Shown: in pieces, positions 44,306 through 52,864 of the stretch
Position numbering within the stretch: the stretch's first letter is position 1
Layout of the letters: every line of letters starts with the position of its first letter
Assembly: GCF_008727925.1 (NCBI RefSeq)
Contig: NZ_VTWT01000001.1
Span: 310,001 to 374,000 of the forward strand
DNA: 64,000 nucleotides
Source of the DNA: Adhaeribacter soli
GTDB taxonomy: Bacteria; Bacteroidota; Bacteroidia; Cytophagales; Hymenobacteraceae
Direction of reading: 5' to 3'
The notes under the pieces: generated by a model
Database searches by the model: none
The model's input: only the letters and a program-made list of their open reading frames with translations
Told to the model about the DNA's origin: nothing
Position numbers and translations under genes: made by a program

Positions 44306-44911
44306 GTGAAAAAAATTCAGCTGGAAATTTTAGGCCTTTCGTCGAGCCAGAGTCAATCGGGTTCGTTTGCCTTGGTGTTGGGAGAAAAAGACGGAAACCG
44401 CCGGTTACCGATCATTATCGGCATGTTTGAAGCGCAAAGCATTGCCATTCAGATAGAGAAAATAAACCCGAACCGGCCGCTCACCCACGATCTGTTCAAG
44501 TCTTTTGCCGAGCAAGTAGGGGTAGTGGTTCAGGAAGTTATGATCTCGGACCTGAAAGAAGGGGTGTTTTATTCGAAGATCGTGTGCACCGACGGTGTAA
44601 AGCAATTCGACCTCGATGCCCGCCCTTCCGACGCCATTGCCATTGGTTTACGTTTTAACGTGCCTATTTACACGGTAGAAAGCGTACTTTCCGAAGCCGG
44701 CATTATCCTGAGCGACCTGGAAGACGAAGACGAGGAAACGGGAGAGGAAAGCACCGAAACCAAAGCGGAATCGAAACCTGCTTCAAGCAAGAAGGAAAAG
44801 ATAAACGAAGTTTCGGTAGAAGATCTGAACAAGATGCTGACCGACGCCTTGGAAAAGGAAGACTACGAACGCGCCGCCAAGATCCGCGACGAGCTGAATA
44901 AACGCGGTTAA
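44306..44911 (+). CDS. Bifunctional nuclease-family (DUF151) protein with UVR motif
   Basis: A 201-residue protein starting at GTG (44306). DUF151 domain at 1-130 (LPIIIGMFEAQSIAIQIEKI, FDLDARPSDAIAIGLRFNVP), an acidic linker (EDEDEETGEESTETKAES), then a UvrB/UvrC-type UVR motif (LNKMLTDALEKEDYERAAKI RDEL region, 170-201). DUF151 proteins have been described as RNase/DNase in plants; the bacterial role is unclear, while the UVR motif usually binds Uvr or Clp proteins. The 3' part of this gene is duplicated at 46822-47157. Confidence 0.9.
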   Translation: MKKIQLEILGLSSSQSQSGSFALVLGEKDGNRRLPIIIGMFEAQSIAIQIEKINPNRPLTHDLFKSFAEQVGVVVQEVMISDLKEGVFYSKIVCTDGVKQFDLDARPSDAIAIGLRFNVPIYTVESVLSEAGIILSDLEDEDEETGEESTETKAESKPASSKKEKINEVSVEDLNKMLTDALEKEDYERAAKIRDELNKRG

Positions 44912-44934
44912 TTTATCGCTATTGAATTGATATG

Positions 44935-44965
44935 AAAAAGTCAGGCTGTATAGCCTGACTTTTTT
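44935..44965 (+). terminator. GTCAGG-family terminator 1
   Basis: The stem GAAAAAGTCAGGCT / AGCCTGACTTTTTT with a GTAT loop, 24 bases after the bifunctional-nuclease stop. First of eight hairpins of this family between 44.9 and 53.05 kb. The preceding ATTGAATTGATAT is also part of the repeated unit. Confidence 0.92.
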
Positions 44966-45165
44966 GTTTGAGAAAGGATTAGGGCCAGAAATGAATAGAA
45001 TAGTATGCTATAAGTATCTGGACAGAAATAACCGCATAATTTGAAAAGAACTTTTATTGTGTAATCTTCTGAAATAAAGCTGTTTATATTTTTTTAATCC
45101 AGGTACTAATATCCAGATACCAATGTCTTTTTACTTAGTATAGCAGGATATGCATTTTGCCTCTA

Positions 45166-46575
45166 TTATTCCAGCACAATTTTTTTGGTAAATACCTGTC
45201 CCGAAGTGCTATTTAATTTAAGGAGGTAGATGCCTTTATTCAGACCGGAAGTTGAAAGCGTAGTTTTGGGCTGATCTAAAGCTATTTCCTGAACTAATTT
45301 GCCCTGTACGTTATACAGTTTCGCTTTAGCATTACGGTAGGTTGGGAAATCGATGGTTATTTGCCCCCTTGCCGGATTTGGATAGATGGAAACAGGCAGG
45401 CTTTCGGAGTCGTTTTTAACGCTTAAGGCAATGCTGCAAAGGTTGGTTAACAGTATAGGAGAGGAAGCATTAGCGGTTGTACCATTTCCCAATTGCCCGC
45501 TGCCATTAAAACCGCAGGCACTGATTGTGCCATCTGCTTTTAAGAAAAGGGAATGATCCCAGCCTGATTCTATTGCAACAACATTCGTTAAGCCGGGTAC
45601 CTGCACAGCGGTGGTTTTTTGCACGGTAGTGCCATCGCCTAATTGTCCGGATGCATTGTTGCCGACCGCCCAGGCGTTTCCGTTGTTTTTAAGGAAAAGC
45701 GAATGCTGGCGGCCGGCATTAATTTTTATGATACCGGTTAAACCGCTTACCTGTACTGGCGTATTGCGTTGCGTAGTGCTGCCATCTCCTAACTGACCGT
45801 TGGAATTGGTGCCGCAACCCCAAACGGTGCCATTGCTTTTCAGAAATAGGGAATGTGTGAGAATGCCTACTGAACCCGGGCTGGCCGAAATAGCCGTAAT
45901 ACCGCTTAAGGATGTAACCTGAACCGGAGTCCTTCTTTTAACCGTGGTACCATCGCCTAACTCTCCGTAAATATTACTACCACATGCCCAAACCGTACCG
46001 TCGTTCTTTAAAAACAGCGAATGAAGACCGCCGGCTGCAATGGCTGTAATACCGCTTAAGGAAGGAATCTGAAAAGGAGTTGTTTTATCTGTTGTGGTAC
46101 CATCGCCCAGCGCTCCGTTGCCATTGTCGCCGCAGGCCCATACTGTGCCATCGTTTTTCAGGAATAGCGAATGGGATAAGCCAGCCGAAATAGCTACCAC
46201 GCCGGTAAGCGTACTAACCTGGGCCAGCGTTTTGCGATTGGTGGTTGTGCCATCGCCTAACTGGCCGTCTAAATTGCGCCCGGTACCCCAAACTGTACCA
46301 TCGCCTTTTAAATATAGCGTAAAATCATCGGAGGCGGCTGCTGCTATCACGTTACTTATGCCGCTTACAGTAATGGGGGTAGAAGTAGTGTTGGGAGTTG
46401 GCCCCACCCCAAATTGCCCGGAACCATTATTGCCGGTGGCTACAGGTACTTTATTATTGCAAACGTATATCGTATGTCCTGACCCCGCTGCTATGGACTG
46501 GGCATTTGTCCGGAAACTTACGCTTATAAATGTTAGACCTGAAAGTAATAAGGAATTGTATAACGTTATTCTCAT
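45166..46575 (-). CDS. RCC1-repeat protein with type IX secretion sorting domain
   Basis: A 469-residue exported protein; ATG at 46575 gives a signal peptide (MRITLYNSLLLSGLTFISVS, cut near NAQS). Seven RCC1-type repeats of about 50 residues follow (AAGxxHSLFLKNDGTVWACG, QLGDGTTxxxxTPVQV), enough for one seven-bladed propeller. The C-terminal 80 residues are a type A T9SS sorting domain (SIYPNPARGQITIDF ... GIYLLKLNSTSGQVFTKKIV). It is therefore secreted or anchored on the cell surface. RCC1 propellers bind proteins; the target is unknown. It lies between the intact and truncated copies of the DUF151 gene. Confidence 0.9.
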   Translation of the reverse strand: MRITLYNSLLLSGLTFISVSFRTNAQSIAAGSGHTIYVCNNKVPVATGNNGSGQFGVGPTPNTTSTPITVSGISNVIAAAASDDFTLYLKGDGTVWGTGRNLDGQLGDGTTTNRKTLAQVSTLTGVVAISAGLSHSLFLKNDGTVWACGDNGNGALGDGTTTDKTTPFQIPSLSGITAIAAGGLHSLFLKNDGTVWACGSNIYGELGDGTTVKRRTPVQVTSLSGITAISASPGSVGILTHSLFLKSNGTVWGCGTNSNGQLGDGSTTQRNTPVQVSGLTGIIKINAGRQHSLFLKNNGNAWAVGNNASGQLGDGTTVQKTTAVQVPGLTNVVAIESGWDHSLFLKADGTISACGFNGSGQLGNGTTANASSPILLTNLCSIALSVKNDSESLPVSIYPNPARGQITIDFPTYRNAKAKLYNVQGKLVQEIALDQPKTTLSTSGLNKGIYLLKLNSTSGQVFTKKIVLE

Positions 46576-46770
46576 AAGGGTAGGGGTTAGGATATGGTCA
46601 AATAACAAGCTATCAGGTATGAATTTTGCCAGTTGGCAAACTTTACTCCCAATGGAAAAGAGCGTTTATGCAGGTTAATTTACATATTATGTTTTAATTC
46701 TACAAAAACTAACCACATATTAGTATTGAAATAAATAAACCAGGTTATTAAAGCCCTGTCGAATTGATAT

Positions 46771-46804
46771 AAAAAATCAGGCTATTTCCCCAACCTGGCT
46801 TTTT
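46771..46804 (+). terminator. GTCAGG-family terminator 2 (degenerate)
   Basis: AAAAAATCAGGCT ... AACCTGGCTTTTTG, preceded by GAATTGATAT exactly as in hairpins 1 and 3. It lies upstream of the truncated DUF151 copy, consistent with a duplicated unit that carries its own terminator. Confidence 0.75.
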
Positions 46805-46821
46805 GTATGAACACGATATTA

Positions 46822-47157
46822 AGAATCGTTTGCAGATGCGGCGTAAAGCAATTCGACCTCGATGCCCGCCCTTCCGACGCCATTGCCATTAATTTACGCT
46901 TTAACGTGCCTAATTACACAGTAGAGAGCGTACTTTCCGAAGCCGGCATTATCCTGAGCGATCTGGAGGATGAAGACGAGGAAACGGGAGAGGAAAGCAC
47001 CGAAACCAAAGCGGAATCGAAACCGGCTTCAAGCAAGAAGGAAAAAATAATCGAGGTTTCGGTAGAAGATCTGAACAAGATGCTGACCGATGCCTTGGAA
47101 AAGGAAGACTACGAACGCGCCGCCAAGATCCGCGACGAGCTGAATAAACGCGGTTAA
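46822..47157 (+). pseudogene. 5'-truncated duplicate of the DUF151/UVR gene
   Basis: This segment repeats the 3' half of the gene at 44306-44911 at near identity, from about the KQFDLDARPSDAIAI block to the stop and beyond into the terminator. The first half, including the start of the DUF151 domain, is missing. The frame is still open from an ATG at 46807 (116 residues), with a few substitutions (IGLRFNVPIY to INLRFNVPNY; KINEV to KIIEV). The acidic linker and UVR motif are intact. It is most likely a pseudogene from partial duplication. A translated UVR-only peptide cannot be excluded. Confidence 0.85.
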
Positions 47158-47179
47158 TTAATCGTTATTGAATTGATAT

Positions 47180-47211
47180 AAAAAAGTCAGGCTGCAAGGC
47201 CTGACTTTTTT
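47180..47211 (+). terminator. GTCAGG-family terminator 3
   Basis: The stem AAAAAAGTCAGGC(T) / GCCTGACTTTTTT after ATTGAATTGATAT, 22 bases past the truncated copy and 16 bases before the end of the leftward SLATT gene. It can serve both, and forms the left border of the AT-rich TIR-SLATT island. Confidence 0.92.
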
Positions 47212-47227
47212 GGTTAGTTTTTTTGAA

Positions 47228-48109
47228 TTATCTTCTTTGAGCACACCATAAAGTATGTTCTCTTGAAATTGCATTCTCTGAATCTAATACAAATTCAGAA
47301 AGCTTTTCCTCTGTATTAACCCTACCAAAAGAAACTAATATAAAATTTAATTCTTGTGCAGCAGTAGTATAAGCCTGTTTTAACTCTTGATGTTGTTTTA
47401 ATTGTAACCAACTTAAAGCTGATGCAGAAACGGTTGTAAAAAAACCAACAAGGTTCCAATTGCTTCCAGGATATTTAATTAAGAAAGCAACACAAATTAA
47501 TGAAATTGCTTGGCAGGAGATAATTAAAATAAACCATCTATTATATCGTAATTTATTAAATTCTGCTTTTTCAGCATACCAATTCCTTTGATCCTCTATT
47601 CTATTTTTAACATAATATTGTTTTCTCTCAAGCATATTAAGACGCCTGATTTCCATCATTTTATCTGTCACAACTGGCAATGTAATAACTTTAGCGTTTA
47701 GGTTTTCATTTAAATCCTTAAATTCTGAACTTAAATCCTTTATTCGTTTTACGAAAACCTCTTTAGCTTTTTCGTCTTCTAAAGCAATTTCAAAACTTTC
47801 AGAACATGTAATGAACCTCCAAGTTAAAGTTTTACAGGATTCAGCCAAAGCCCTTCCTTGGTACCAAATATCTTCGTATTTCTTCGTTCGAATTATTAAA
47901 GTTAAAATAAGGCCAATTAAAAGGAATAACCCTGAAATGGTATATGTAATTAATTTAGGTTGAATAGATTGGTAATTATAAACTGCTAAGGAAGCAGCAA
48001 TAATCATTGTAATTAAATCAAAAGCAATAATATTCTTATATGTTGATTGAGAATCTAACGATGCTTTATCAGAGGCTTGATATAGGCCAGGAAAATCTTT
48101 TAATTCCAT
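47228..48109 (-). CDS. SLATT-type (DUF4231-like) four-helix membrane protein, putative pore effector
   Basis: A 293-residue protein with two hairpins of membrane helices: about 28-48 and 54-75 (LITMIIAASLAVYNY, LITYTISGLFLLIGLILTL), then about 190-211 and 216-237 (WFILIISCQAISLICVAFL, WNLVGFFTTVSASALSWL). A long helical cytoplasmic segment lies between them (DEKAKEVFVKRIKDLSSEFK), and YKNIIAF, YAEKAEFNKLRYNRW and QEL-rich tails flank the pairs. This double 2TM layout fits the SLATT superfamily, predicted pore-forming effectors in nucleotide-signal immune systems. It is 3 bases downstream of a TIR-like gene, so they form one operon. Strikingly AT-rich codon use compared with neighbouring genes indicates recent transfer. 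Confidence 0.75.
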   Translation of the reverse strand: MELKDFPGLYQASDKASLDSQSTYKNIIAFDLITMIIAASLAVYNYQSIQPKLITYTISGLFLLIGLILTLIIRTKKYEDIWYQGRALAESCKTLTWRFITCSESFEIALEDEKAKEVFVKRIKDLSSEFKDLNENLNAKVITLPVVTDKMMEIRRLNMLERKQYYVKNRIEDQRNWYAEKAEFNKLRYNRWFILIISCQAISLICVAFLIKYPGSNWNLVGFFTTVSASALSWLQLKQHQELKQAYTTAAQELNFILVSFGRVNTEEKLSEFVLDSENAISREHTLWCAQRR

Positions 48110-48112
48110 TTG

Positions 48113-48622
48113 TTAATTTAATCCCAATGATTGATAAACACTTTCCGGATATATTCTACCACCATTTGATGAATTTGATTTTTTGCCTTTAAATTCTTTT
48201 GGAAAATTATCAAGTGCATATTTGATAATTTTCATTTTGAAAGGAATATGAACCGTATAAGTGTCCCTAATAATTGGTGGGCAAGTCTTATTATTTTGCA
48301 GCTTACTTCCATCCAAATTCACAGCAATAATTGGAAGTCCTAAATCTTGCGCTACCTCAATTTCCCATCGCACATATTTATATAAATTTTTTGTAGACTC
48401 ACCTATTAATACAACTACTTGACAAGCATTGGCAAAACGTTTTTTTAATTTTCCTTTAATATAGTATTCATTATTAGCATTGCTTGTAAGTGTATATTCT
48501 GAATGGGCGTCTTCAAAATTGAAATCAATATGTTCAAGAGCCTTCCAACCTTTCATCCGTGCATATGCCCATTTATCTTTGTCTCCATCAAAAATTATGT
48601 AAGTTTTATCTTTATAGCTCAT
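48113..48622 (-). CDS. ThsB/MTH538-like TIR-domain protein
   Basis: A 169-residue protein; start MSYKDKTYIIFDGDKDKWAY at ATG 48622 (a TTG at 48667 could add 15 residues). The pattern is that of the MTH538 TIR-like group that includes Thoeris ThsB: first strand TYIIFDGDKDKWAYARMKGW, FNFEDAHSEYTLTS, YYIKGKLKKRFANACQVVVL IGE, then KYVRWEIEVAQDLGLPIIAV. The Glu residues of RWEIE are candidates for the catalytic glutamate of NAD-processing TIRs. In Thoeris, such TIR proteins make a cyclic ADP-ribose-like signal that fires an effector. Here the next gene encodes a SLATT membrane protein instead of ThsA. The gene is AT-rich and probably foreign. Confidence 0.8.
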   Translation of the reverse strand: MSYKDKTYIIFDGDKDKWAYARMKGWKALEHIDFNFEDAHSEYTLTSNANNEYYIKGKLKKRFANACQVVVLIGESTKNLYKYVRWEIEVAQDLGLPIIAVNLDGSKLQNNKTCPPIIRDTYTVHIPFKMKIIKYALDNFPKEFKGKKSNSSNGGRIYPESVYQSLGLN

Positions 48623-48739
48623 ATTATTTATGAATTGTTCTGATGCTTGCTTTATTAATTTTGGCAATATAATAAAAAGTATATGGAATTTATGTTTAAT
48701 GTTAAGTGGTTTTACGCATTAAAACGAGGCAAACCCAAC

Positions 48740-48776
48740 AAAAAAAGTCAGGCCGATAACCCAGCCTGACTTTTTT
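48740..48776. terminator. GTCAGG-family terminator 4
   Basis: AAAAAAAGTCAGGC ... GCCTGACTTTTTTG, upstream of the TIR gene and at the right border of the AT-rich island. No gene ends here, so the hairpin appears to have come with the repeats rather than with a transcript. It abuts the 48774-48876 element. Confidence 0.85.
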
Positions 48777-48876
48777 GCCTGAACACGATTTTTTTGATTT
48801 TAAGGATATGAATCAATTTGAAATTTAAATAAAATCTTGTCTATCGTTTAAATCCTTAAAATCGTGTTCAGACAAA
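48774..48876. repeat. Compact TGAACACGATT / AATCGTGTTCA inverted element
   Basis: TTTGCCTGAACACGATTTTT is mirrored by AAAATCGTGTTCAGACAAA, with AT-rich DNA between, a short member (103 bp) of the TTTGTCTGAA family (18288-18488, 39338-39568). The remainder of the 48623-48983 gap holds hairpins 4 and 5 and no gene. Confidence 0.7.
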
Positions 48877-48895
48877 AACGTTACCCAGACCCAAT

Positions 48896-48931
48896 AAAAA
48901 AGTCAGGCCGGAAACCCAGCCTGACTTTTTT
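48896..48931 (-). terminator. GTCAGG-family terminator 5
   Basis: AAAAAAGTCAGGC ... GCCTGACTTTTTT, 52 bases beyond the stop of the leftward lipoprotein gene at 48984-49457, with a T-run on both strands. Confidence 0.9.
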
Positions 48932-49628: not shown

Positions 49629-49663
49629 AAAAAAGTCAGGCCACTTCCGCAACCTGACTTTTT
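49629..49663 (-). terminator. GTCAGG-family terminator 6
   Basis: CAAAAAAGTCAGGCC ... ACCTGACTTTTT, about 58 bases past the stop of the leftward lipoprotein-esterase gene. Confidence 0.88.
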
Positions 49664-49720: not shown

Positions 49721-50485
49721 TTACTTCTGCAACCACTTCACCAACTCATCAAGCACCTGGTTGTTTATCTGGTGGCCCATTTCAAATTCATGATACGTAG
49801 GCTGAATTCCTAAACTTTGAATATACGCAGAAGCTTCGCGGGCATAGTGTACAGGCAACGTGCCATCCTGTTTGCCGTGGGCAATAAACACTTTCAGGTT
49901 TTTCAGCTCTTTGCCGGGTTTAACCGAAGGCCGTATTTCCGTTAGCAGGCGGCCGCTCAGGGAAATGATGCCGGTAACTTCGGTAGGGTGGGTCAGTCCG
50001 ATGCTGTAGCTCATGATGCCGCCCTGGCTGAAACCGCCCAGATATACTTCGTCCAGCTTGTATTTCTGCTTTACCTGCCGGACAAATTGCAGGATCAGTT
50101 CGCGGCTTTGGGCTTCCTGGCTGGCATTGAATACCGGTTTGCCGGTAGAAAAATCGACTTCGTACCAGGCGTAACGGCCGGCGCCTAACGAAAACGGACC
50201 GCGCGGAGAAATTACCAGCAGGTCGTCAGGGAGGTGCGGGGCTAAACCGAAAAGGTCCTGTTCGTTGCTGCCTACGCCGTGCAAAAGAATGAGCGCCCGG
50301 CGTTTCCCGGATTCCTTTTTAGCCGGCCGTTCCAGGTAATGCAAAGCCAGTTTTTCTTCGGCTTGTGAAGGGGCTGAAGGTTGTTCGTTTAGGGAGGTCA
50401 TAGCAGTTTCTGGTTTCACCTGACAGCTGAAAACGGTCAGGAGTAATAATAATAAGGTCGTCATATAAAAGTTGTTCCGGCGCAT
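49721..50485 (-). CDS. Lipoprotein phospholipase/carboxylesterase-type hydrolase
   Basis: A 254-residue envelope lipoprotein: MRRNNFYMTTLLLLLLTVFSC with lipid on Cys21. The enzyme domain (about 45-250) has ALILLHGVGSNEQDLFGLAP, GRYAWYEVDF, nucleophile Ser in LGGFSQGGIMSYSIG, Asp in HGKQDGTLPVHYA and His in EFEMGHQINNQ, the complete triad of the carboxylesterase/phospholipase YpfH-like family. It lies 4 bases after the exported DODA-type dioxygenase gene in one operon. Joint action on an ester-linked aromatic is an inference. Confidence 0.9.
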   Translation of the reverse strand: MRRNNFYMTTLLLLLLTVFSCQVKPETAMTSLNEQPSAPSQAEEKLALHYLERPAKKESGKRRALILLHGVGSNEQDLFGLAPHLPDDLLVISPRGPFSLGAGRYAWYEVDFSTGKPVFNASQEAQSRELILQFVRQVKQKYKLDEVYLGGFSQGGIMSYSIGLTHPTEVTGIISLSGRLLTEIRPSVKPGKELKNLKVFIAHGKQDGTLPVHYAREASAYIQSLGIQPTYHEFEMGHQINNQVLDELVKWLQK

Positions 50486-50489
50486 ACGT

Positions 50490-51371
50490 TTACCCGATCT
50501 TTACCGAAGTCATGGTAAGCGAGCCGCCCACGGCTTTATCGTTGAAGAACGAAATATCGTCTTTGCTGCCTTGTAAACCTAAGGTGTAAAGCAGCGGCCA
50601 GTAATGTTCCGGAGTTGGAATGGCCAGCAGCGCTTCCTTGCCCAGGCTTTCGTATTTGATCAGCTTGTCGTGGTGGCCTTTGCGGATGAGGTCTTTGAAG
50701 GTGCCGTTAATTTGTTTGGCCCAATCGTACCCGTATTCCGCATCGTTCAGCCGGTCCCAGGCAACCATGCCCAGGTTATGCACCATATTACCGCTACCCA
50801 CAATCAGTACACCTTTCTTCCGGAGCCCATAAAGTTCTTTAGCCAGGTCGTAATGGTATTGCGGGCCTTTGGTATAGTCGATGCTGAGCTGGAGCACCGG
50901 AATATTGGCTTTCGGGTACATGTGCCGGATCACCGTCCAGGCGCCGTGGTCCAGGCCCCAGTCGTGGTCTTCCACAACTTGGGTAGATTTTATAAGCGAA
51001 GCCGTTTCTTTGGCAATGCTAGGGCTACCCGGTGCCGGATATTGCACGGCAAATAATTCCTTCGGGAAACCGCCGAAATCGTGAATGGTTTTCGGGAAAT
51101 CCATGGCCGTAATGCGGGTGCCTTTGCTTAACCAATGCGCCGAAACGACCAATACGGCTTTGGGCGTAGGAATTTCTTTCCCTAACTGGGTCCATTTTCG
51201 GCTGAATTCGGTGTCTTCAATCCCGTTCATAGGCGAACCGTGACCGATGAACAAGACCGGCATCAGGCTTTCCTGTTCCGATAAAACCGAGGTGAATTTA
51301 TTGAAAGCTGAAAGCGTAGTAATGCCCATTGCGCCAACCGCCAGACTGCTGATGAATTTTCTCCGTTCCAT
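50490..51371 (-). CDS. Exported DODA-type extradiol dioxygenase family protein
   Basis: A 293-residue protein of the 4,5-DOPA dioxygenase/LigB-type family (YgiD). Metal-binding histidines are seen in LFIGHGSPMNG, SAHWLSKG, WGLDHGAWTVI and GSGNMVHNLG. Unusually, it begins MERRKFISSLAVGAMGITTL, a twin-arginine-like signal, whereas most YgiD-type proteins are cytoplasmic. A metal enzyme loaded in the cytoplasm before export fits the Tat route. Substrate unknown. It is first gene of an operon with a lipoprotein esterase. Confidence 0.87.
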   Translation of the reverse strand: MERRKFISSLAVGAMGITTLSAFNKFTSVLSEQESLMPVLFIGHGSPMNGIEDTEFSRKWTQLGKEIPTPKAVLVVSAHWLSKGTRITAMDFPKTIHDFGGFPKELFAVQYPAPGSPSIAKETASLIKSTQVVEDHDWGLDHGAWTVIRHMYPKANIPVLQLSIDYTKGPQYHYDLAKELYGLRKKGVLIVGSGNMVHNLGMVAWDRLNDAEYGYDWAKQINGTFKDLIRKGHHDKLIKYESLGKEALLAIPTPEHYWPLLYTLGLQGSKDDISFFNDKAVGGSLTMTSVKIG

Positions 51372-51550
51372 AATTTTATTCCTTTAAGGTTGAATTACAA
51401 ATCTGATCTTCAACTGGTTAATTGGTTATAAAATACACCAAGTTGCAGCTCTGAAATTCGTAATGTTACAAAGTTACCTTATTAAAAAAGGAATCGGATT
51501 GACAAATGATAAGAAATTGAGGCGTAATTATGAGCAGGTATTGTAAAAAA

Positions 51551-51713
51551 AGTTGTCATCCTGAGCAACAGCGAAGGACCTCGTCGGCGTTAAGTAGAAA
51601 TGAAAATTCTGGCACCAGTTTTTGGTCCTTAGAGGGTATTGTTTTGGTACGGTGTAGTTAGTATTTCTGCTAAAAGCCAACGAGGTCCTTCGCTCGCGCT
51701 CAGGATGACAGCT
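51551..51713. repeat. Inverted-repeat element with TGTCATCCTGAGC ends
   Basis: AGTTGTCATCCTGAGCAACA... (51551-51590) is mirrored by ...GCGCTCAGGATGACAGCT (51676-51713); AGCGAAGGACCT and AGGTCCTTCGCT pair inside. A decayed relative is at 32221-32370. The 51372-51759 gap otherwise has no gene. Confidence 0.75.
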
Positions 51714-51759
51714 GTAATTAGATGACAGGTGTAATTATTAGTTGCAAGCAGCTTTAGGT

Positions 51760-52335
51760 TTAAGAAGCGATCTGTTTACGGATGCGACTTAAGGTTTCCG
51801 GCGTAACGCCAAGGTAAGAGGCAATGAGTTGCAATGGCATGCGGTGTAACAAGGCCGGGTATTGCTCTAATAGCCGACGATATTTTTCTTCGGCGGTCAG
51901 GCCGATGGTGCTTTCCAGACGGCGTTGCAGGGCGATGTAGGCGTTCTGGTATAAAAGGCGGGTGTAGGTTTCGTACTTGGGTAACGTGGCTAATAATTGC
52001 TGGTGGCTGTTCCGGTCAATAAGCAGGAGCTGGCAATCTTCCAGGGCTTCGATGGTAAGTTTAGAGGGTTCCTGGGTAAAAAAGCTGTACAGATCCGCGA
52101 TCCACCAGCCTTCAAAAGCGAACTGGATCACGTTTTGTGCGCCTTTGGCCGTGGTGCTGTACGAAAACAAAGCGCCTTTTTCGACAAAGGCCAGCCGGTT
52201 GCAAACTTCTCCTTCCCGGAGCAGAAATTGTTTCTTCTTAAGCTCTCCGGGAACAAAGAAGCGCCGGCAGATTTCCAGTTCTGCTTCGTCAGCACTTACT
52301 TTTTCCCGGAAAGATCTTAAAAGCAATTCAGCCAT
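51760..52335 (-). CDS. Crp/Fnr-family transcriptional regulator
   Basis: A 191-residue protein using ATG at 52335 (MAELLLRSFREKVSADEAEL). Cyclic-nucleotide-type beta-roll (about 30-125, FVPGELKKKQFLLREGEVCN, LAFVEKGALFSYST) and a short C-terminal helix-turn-helix (LTAEEKYRRLLEQYP, MPLQLIASYLGVTPETLSRI). No N-terminal cysteine cluster, so it is not an Fe-S oxygen sensor like FNR. This Bacteroidota type usually has no known ligand. It could control its neighbours, but no matching dyad is seen there; it is not linked to the cco promoter by position. Confidence 0.9.
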   Translation of the reverse strand: MAELLLRSFREKVSADEAELEICRRFFVPGELKKKQFLLREGEVCNRLAFVEKGALFSYSTTAKGAQNVIQFAFEGWWIADLYSFFTQEPSKLTIEALEDCQLLLIDRNSHQQLLATLPKYETYTRLLYQNAYIALQRRLESTIGLTAEEKYRRLLEQYPALLHRMPLQLIASYLGVTPETLSRIRKQIAS

Positions 52336-52391
52336 AACCAAATTTAGAACGTGTAAGTTAACAATTCGGGCAAACGCTACCAAAATCACAC

Positions 52392-52425
52392 AAAAAAGTC
52401 AGGCCCTTTCCAGAACCTGACTTTT
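52392..52425 (-). terminator. GTCAGG-family terminator 7
   Basis: CAAAAAAGTCAGGCC ... ACCTGACTTTTC, just beyond the leftward VOC gene stop at 52448. Confidence 0.87.
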
Positions 52426-52447
52426 CTGCCTAAAATTATATCGTTTT

Positions 52448-52864
52448 CTACTGCTGGGGCAGCTTGCTCATATCCATAAAAAGCGCATTCCAGCGGTGGC
52501 CGTCCGGGTCGGCAAAGCCGCAACCATACATCCAGCCCTGGTGCTCGGCCGGCTGACCGAAAATGGTGCCGCCTGCTTCTCTGGCTTTGCGGGCAATTTC
52601 ATCAACTTCTTCGCGGCTTTCGGCATCAAACGAAAGCAGGATCTCAGAACCTCTGGCCGTATCAGCAACCTCATGACCGGTAAAAGCCCGGAAGTTCGGC
52701 TCGGTAAAAAGCATTACCATCATTTTCTTTTCCCCGATAATCAATCCGGCTGCCTGGTCACTGTCGCCGTGGCGCGGATCGAAGGTAAAGCCCAAAGCGG
52801 TAAAAAATGCTTTGGAGCGATTAATGTCTTTTACCGGCAGGTTTATCCAGAGTTCTTTTGTCAT
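52448..52864 (-). CDS. VOC (glyoxalase/bleomycin-resistance) family protein
   Basis: A 138-residue protein of the vicinal-oxygen-chelate fold: ELWINLPVKDINRSKAFFTALGF in the first beta-alpha-beta-beta-beta unit, GTIFGQPAEHQGWMYGCGFADPDGHRWNALFMD in the second. The DPDGHRWN motif is typical of the glyoxalase-like 'lactoylglutathione lyase' group annotated generically as VOC. Metal ligands cannot be confirmed from motif alone. Reaction unknown. Single-gene unit ending at a GTCAGG hairpin. Confidence 0.9.
   Translation of the reverse strand: MTKELWINLPVKDINRSKAFFTALGFTFDPRHGDSDQAAGLIIGEKKMMVMLFTEPNFRAFTGHEVADTARGSEILLSFDAESREEVDEIARKAREAGGTIFGQPAEHQGWMYGCGFADPDGHRWNALFMDMSKLPQQ

Follow-up and report, generated by a model that had tools for sequence, protein, structure and literature searches.

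The window analysed here, a 64,000-nucleotide stretch of the Adhaeribacter soli genome, contains a full-length bfn gene followed by an RCC1-repeat gene, a truncated second copy of the bfn 3' end, and a pair of genes for a SLATT protein and a TIR protein (Table 1). The full bfn is an ordinary BFN/DUF151 plus UVR gene. Like other bacterial genes of this kind (PF02577, PF02151), it has both domains (Pfam: BFN_dom, 1.1e-40; UVR, 3.1e-07), and its product is 90% identical to the protein of Adhaeribacter terrigena, the species with which this genome groups and the only other Adhaeribacter in the genome set that we searched. Upstream of bfn lie etfA (Pfam) and a gene that is, judging from its sequence, presumably etfB. 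The short copy differs from the bacterial genes in that it retains 41 residues of the BFN end together with the UVR motif, and in that invariant residues have been changed.

Table 1. Features of the bfn region, with positions in the window
Feature	Position	Strand	Basis
bfn, full-length (BFN/DUF151 domain + UVR motif), beside etfA; intact copy	44306..44911	+	Pfam
Terminator 1, symmetric hairpin, T-runs on both strands	44935..44964	.	
RCC1-repeat protein with secretion tail (Por_Secre_tail)	45166..46608	-	
Third bfn end, decayed, with a weak AATAAAC..GGTT.. part, GAATTGATAT, and a hairpin that is weak	46734..46804	+	
22-bp stub, arm of a dispersed palindromic repeat, 3 mismatches to consensus GTCTGAACACGATTTTAAGGAT; join to bfn at ~46825-46826	46805..46826	+	
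Truncated bfn 3' half, invariant sites replaced, probable pseudogene, with a 116-aa frame open over 46807-47157	46825..47157	+	
Copied downstream stretch with GAATTGATAT + terminator 2, also facing the SLATT gene end	47158..47215	+	
Effector-like SLATT protein with two transmembrane segments (SLATT_3 + SLATT_1); GC low	47228..48109	-	Pfam
ThsB-like TIR protein	48113..48667	-	Pfam ThsB_TIR 7.5e-18; PADLOC ThsB 4.7e-58

A sequence-only reading of this stretch had claimed that the 3' half of bfn, its stop codon, the downstream GAATTGATAT, and the terminator recur further along, and had called for a pairwise alignment. The alignment bears this out: positions 44579-44969 and 46825-47215 match over 391 bp without a gap and with 27 differences (93% identity; BLAST E 5.2e-167), and 307 of 327 bases are identical in the coding part. 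Homology runs from 44579/46825, not from 44570 as first proposed. It stops at 44969/47215, beyond the terminators, where RCC1 adjoins one copy and SLATT adjoins the other. The same reading described the remnant as a 116-residue, UVR-only frame. The frame is indeed open, but it is not UVR-only, as Pfam finds 41 BFN residues in it; the match is confined to positions 72-110 of the 112-position BFN profile, and a complete BFN domain with its conserved residues is not present.

At its 5' edge, the short copy abruptly gives way to an arm of a dispersed palindromic repeat. The stub upstream of the copy reads GTATGAACACGATATTAAGAAT, three mismatches away from GTCTGAACACGATTTTAAGGAT, and in a comparison with a 26-arm consensus, the window tracks the repeat from 46803 to approximately 46826 and then turns into bfn. 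Two bases at the join, 46825-46826, are common to the repeat arm and bfn. Using an arm pattern that allowed at most one mismatch, with an N at each of the three sites where the stub deviates, we found 43 matches in this genome (the window stub included) and 43 in A. terrigena, compared to 0 for the reversed control. Paired, facing arms (at most two mismatches) are present in 6 of 20 fetched stretches and span 192-404 bp; a seventh stretch (L161) has a second arm with four mismatches, and the other 13 have a single arm at up to six mismatches. Judged by this architecture, the dispersed repeat looks like a MITE-type palindromic element.

Directly before the stub lies what remains of a third bfn end. 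That a third GAATTGATAT-plus-hairpin precedes the short copy had been noticed earlier, and the score of the whole end was matched by 0 of 500 shuffles. Positions 46761-46782 read GAATTGATATAAAAAATCAGGC, one base short of the version at the two bfn ends. Taken alone, the similarity 5' of GAATTGATAT is weak: its score is reached by 9 of 500 shuffles in comparison with the second copy and by 28 of 500 in comparison with the first. A search of the genome with the full-length end pattern returned, besides the two bfn ends, one further match with three mismatches; the third element, owing to its deletion, escapes this search. It also has a weaker hairpin than the bfn ends (-10.6 versus -20.4 and -22.4 kcal/mol), and the right half of this hairpin is similar to another terminator of the island, at approximately 49630-49663.

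We then considered the genes beside the two copies. GC content is ~0.29-0.31 in the SLATT-TIR genes, 0.46-0.51 in RCC1, and mostly 0.46-0.55 in the flanks. The RCC1 protein has no match in A. terrigena at E 1e-30, and the SLATT protein has no match in PADLOC. Since a ThsB-like TIR gene adjoins a SLATT effector-like gene, an arrangement that we count as Thoeris-like, positions 47228-48667 likely encode a putative Thoeris-like defence pair. Two other genomes among the 204 family genomes searched have a SLATT match, and in both of them a TIR gene lies next to it (two TIR genes in G178, locus L176; one in G132, locus L177). TIR-SLATT gene neighbourhoods have already been described, and in the part of the source used here (PMC9503650) they belong to Firmicutes phages; the adjoining TIR and SLATT genes are what the two settings share, whereas ours sits in a chromosomal island, and such neighbourhoods are not the cause of the copy. 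For RCC1 and SLATT, the 204 family genomes contain only distant relatives, the best match being 53% for RCC1 and 37% for SLATT, and a plasmid search with positions 44966-46824 gave no match.

To place the duplication among relatives, we surveyed bfn itself. There is a single match per genome in all 36 other family genomes searched; in an order-level set of 22 genomes, three (G040, G046, and G056) have a second, distant match at 29-44% identity and four have none. Among 80 named loci, searched at E 1e-6 with flanks of up to 10 kb (78 extend more than 5 kb past bfn, none more than 10 kb), no second match used the same part of bfn. The sequence-only reading had set its proposal against relatives carrying two full, adjacent bfn genes, and this arrangement was seen in none of the 36 family genomes or the 80 loci.

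A comparison of 42 loci, namely the window and 41 named loci picked from the 80, revealed an insertion spot in the gap behind bfn, which is empty in three other Adhaeribacter species and carries a cargo that differs between species. A permease gene (cluster c2) lies 3' of bfn in 42 of 42 loci, as does an ABC-ATPase cluster (c0) that includes a second ATPase gene as well; in L043, L048, and L055, a frame on the opposite strand was taken by the frame picker where the first ATPase lies. In A. aquaticus, A. aerolatus, and A. rhizoryzae (L060, L061, and L066, respectively), the end of the opposite-strand ABC-ATPase gene is 66-143 bp past bfn, and in L054 and L104 the ATPase gene ends ~0.4 kb past it. 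A gene of cluster c5, mostly ~430-460 residues long, stands between bfn and the ATPase in 32 of the 42 loci. In our window, ~8.1 kb separates bfn from the end of the ABC-ATPase gene, and the corresponding distance in A. terrigena is 7.0 kb. At the same spot, both loci carry a common block of genes (window positions 49721-52864) for abhydrolase, LigB, cNMP-binding, and glyoxalase proteins; among the 42 loci, the clusters of this block are confined to these two. Beside bfn, the inserts are unlike each other. The window has RCC1, followed by the partial copy, SLATT, and TIR, and in A. terrigena, which has a single bfn and no partial copy, there is a defence-like AAA_15 ATPase gene with AriA/GajA-like PADLOC matches (L044, 10695-12524). 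We suggest that the gap after bfn is a site where Adhaeribacter acquires defence-like genes.

We next asked in what state the short copy is. It has N in place of G and N in place of I at sites that are invariant in 41 of 41 rows of a comparison, and C at a site where 38 of the 41 rows have D; at least three genomes enter this comparison twice. In the tree, the two copies are sisters (support 0.95), and nearly all divergence falls on the short copy (branch length 0.085, versus ~0 for the full-copy tip). Seventeen codons differ between the copies, 12 of them synonymously. The state shared with A. terrigena is found in the full copy at 9 of the 17 and in the short copy at 3, with 5 ambiguous, so that with A. 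terrigena as the reference, 9 codons are derived in the short copy and 3 in the full copy. By lineage, six synonymous changes belong to the short copy and three to the full copy, and the three amino acid changes with an assigned lineage are all on the short copy. Changes on both lineages, with amino acid changes on the short copy only, are what is expected if the short copy was first a working allele and was displaced later.

In simulations of neutral decay with 14 changes on the short copy, 9.5-10.6 amino-acid-changing codons are expected and 5 are observed (P 0.0005-0.0095), and with all 20 differences on the short copy, 5 or fewer arose in 0 of 4,000 runs; these P values overstate the case because three of the five amino-acid-changing codons carry two changes each. 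In a count of nucleotides, the short copy has an excess of third-position changes that is not significant for 14 changes (P ~0.14-0.15), with P 0.001-0.004 for 20. Recombination and tandem duplication are not told apart by the substitution pattern. Nor is the open 116-residue frame evidence for a gene, as simulated neutral copies with 14 or 20 changes were free of stop codons in 45-81% of runs. The short copy is a probable displaced and non-functional remnant of the bfn 3' end, and the protein fragment probably has no present role.

A working small UVR protein, maintained under selection, would be a different outcome of the same sequence, and we regard it as improbable. Of the 79 codons in the linker plus UVR part, 10 differ, 9 of them synonymously, and one amino acid change or fewer is reached in 0.2-1.3% of neutral runs with six changes, for a part that was chosen post hoc. 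However, the contrast between the BFN stub and the rest is not significant (Fisher 0.08-0.10), and a working parental allele would give an identical pattern. The start codon lies inside the repeat stub, directly after a hairpin, and no Bacteroidota-type promoter pattern is found near this start; the pattern has three matches in the window, none near the copy and with no excess over chance. Among the relatives compared, we saw no second copy of bfn. It is equally hard to credit that the copy has been retained as a source of such a protein, or that the gene end and terminator form a portable homology handle that moves SLATT-TIR cassettes between strains.

Most likely, the copy is a scar from foreign genes, including the putative virus-defence pair, that were spliced in beside bfn. 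As to the mechanism, we give about an even chance to an illegitimate, one-sided recombination that involved two versions of the bfn locus. The bfn spot would take up foreign genes, and close relatives would have carried two parental versions, bfn-terminator-RCC1 and bfn-terminator-SLATT-TIR. Recombination between them would have been homologous at one end and, at the other, illegitimate, with the join at the repeat arm near 46825, leaving in series the full bfn, RCC1, the repeat stub, the resident bfn end, and SLATT-TIR; a homologous crossover on the other side would leave no mark. We prefer this account because one event accounts for how the genes are ordered, for the sharp edge, and for the fact that the two terminators are followed by different genes. 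The decayed third end is beyond the reach of a single-event explanation, and more than one event must therefore have occurred in any case. No parental arrangement was seen around the RCC1 and SLATT matches fetched from the 204 family genomes: the 21 loci (2 SLATT and 19 of the RCC1 matches, with ~1.5 kb on each side) contain no bfn match.

The sequence-only reading had instead proposed a tandem duplication followed by an insertion or deletion. Its partial end copy with RCC1 in between stands, but the tandem duplication does not follow, given the join to a dispersed repeat and the SLATT-TIR genes beyond. In a fuller form, in which the bfn 3' half and terminator were duplicated in tandem and a later insertion or replacement left RCC1 between the copies and SLATT-TIR behind them, this remains a serious contender that we nevertheless hold to be somewhat less probable. 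It fits the sister position of the copies, the 9-to-3 asymmetry of derived codons, of a kind that would arise if one copy evolved neutrally and the other under constraint, and the third end, which shows that several partial ends can form in the region; were the copy a local duplicate in decay, the tree would likewise place nearly all of the divergence on it. On the other hand, it requires at least two events, the 5' edge of the copy is joined to a dispersed repeat, and there are fewer amino-acid-changing codons than under neutral decay, with the overstated P values given above. The sequences after the terminators diverge almost immediately, and we found neither the same sequence after both copies nor a common unit boundary, which a later replacement could have hidden. 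The order of full copy, insert, and truncated copy also recalls integrase-mediated insertion at a gene 3' end, in which the gene is restored and a partial copy left behind, as in tRNA-gene islands. We reject this as very unlikely, since just two frames between the copies reach 80 residues, RCC1 and, on its antisense strand, one of 194 residues, and since 391 bp at 93% identity is unlike a short identical att core. Least credible of all is an assembly artefact: the genome is a draft of 16 contigs, but 27 of 391 sites differ, the flanks are distinct, and the region lies inside an 898-kb contig. The copy is real and can be explained, and no counterpart turned up among the relatives that we compared; it looks like an ordinary recombination scar beside a defence-type island.

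One-sided illegitimate recombination has precedents. Homology-facilitated illegitimate recombination has been measured in E. coli conjugation, where, in the part of the source used here, it is rare (PMC3240628). A process akin to it has been suggested for the shifted-back 3' gene ends of the Vibrio cholerae T6SS (PMC5361080, in the excerpt drawn on here). The immunity-gene arrays of that system, with their displaced 3' ends and orphan immunity genes, are alike in that a module enters with one homologous side and the older 3' end is pushed downstream. The same excerpt differs from our case in that the retained parts are immunity genes, whereas the displaced part here looks dead; in its quoted example, just one arrangement of the series is said to be still unseen among extant strains, whereas no intermediate was found here. 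The well-preserved join suggests how the end of a core gene can anchor the uptake of defence-like genes.

The part of the copy that may still matter is its terminator. Terminator 2 forms a strong symmetric hairpin (-22.4 kcal/mol) and ends ~17 bp from the SLATT stop codon, a proximity suggesting that it may serve the SLATT operon; once kept, it may still end the SLATT transcript. Further along, positions 48743-48929 contain two near-identical terminators around a short palindromic repeat element (arms at 48777 and 48852), and this segment folds far better than shuffled sequences (z -10.4).
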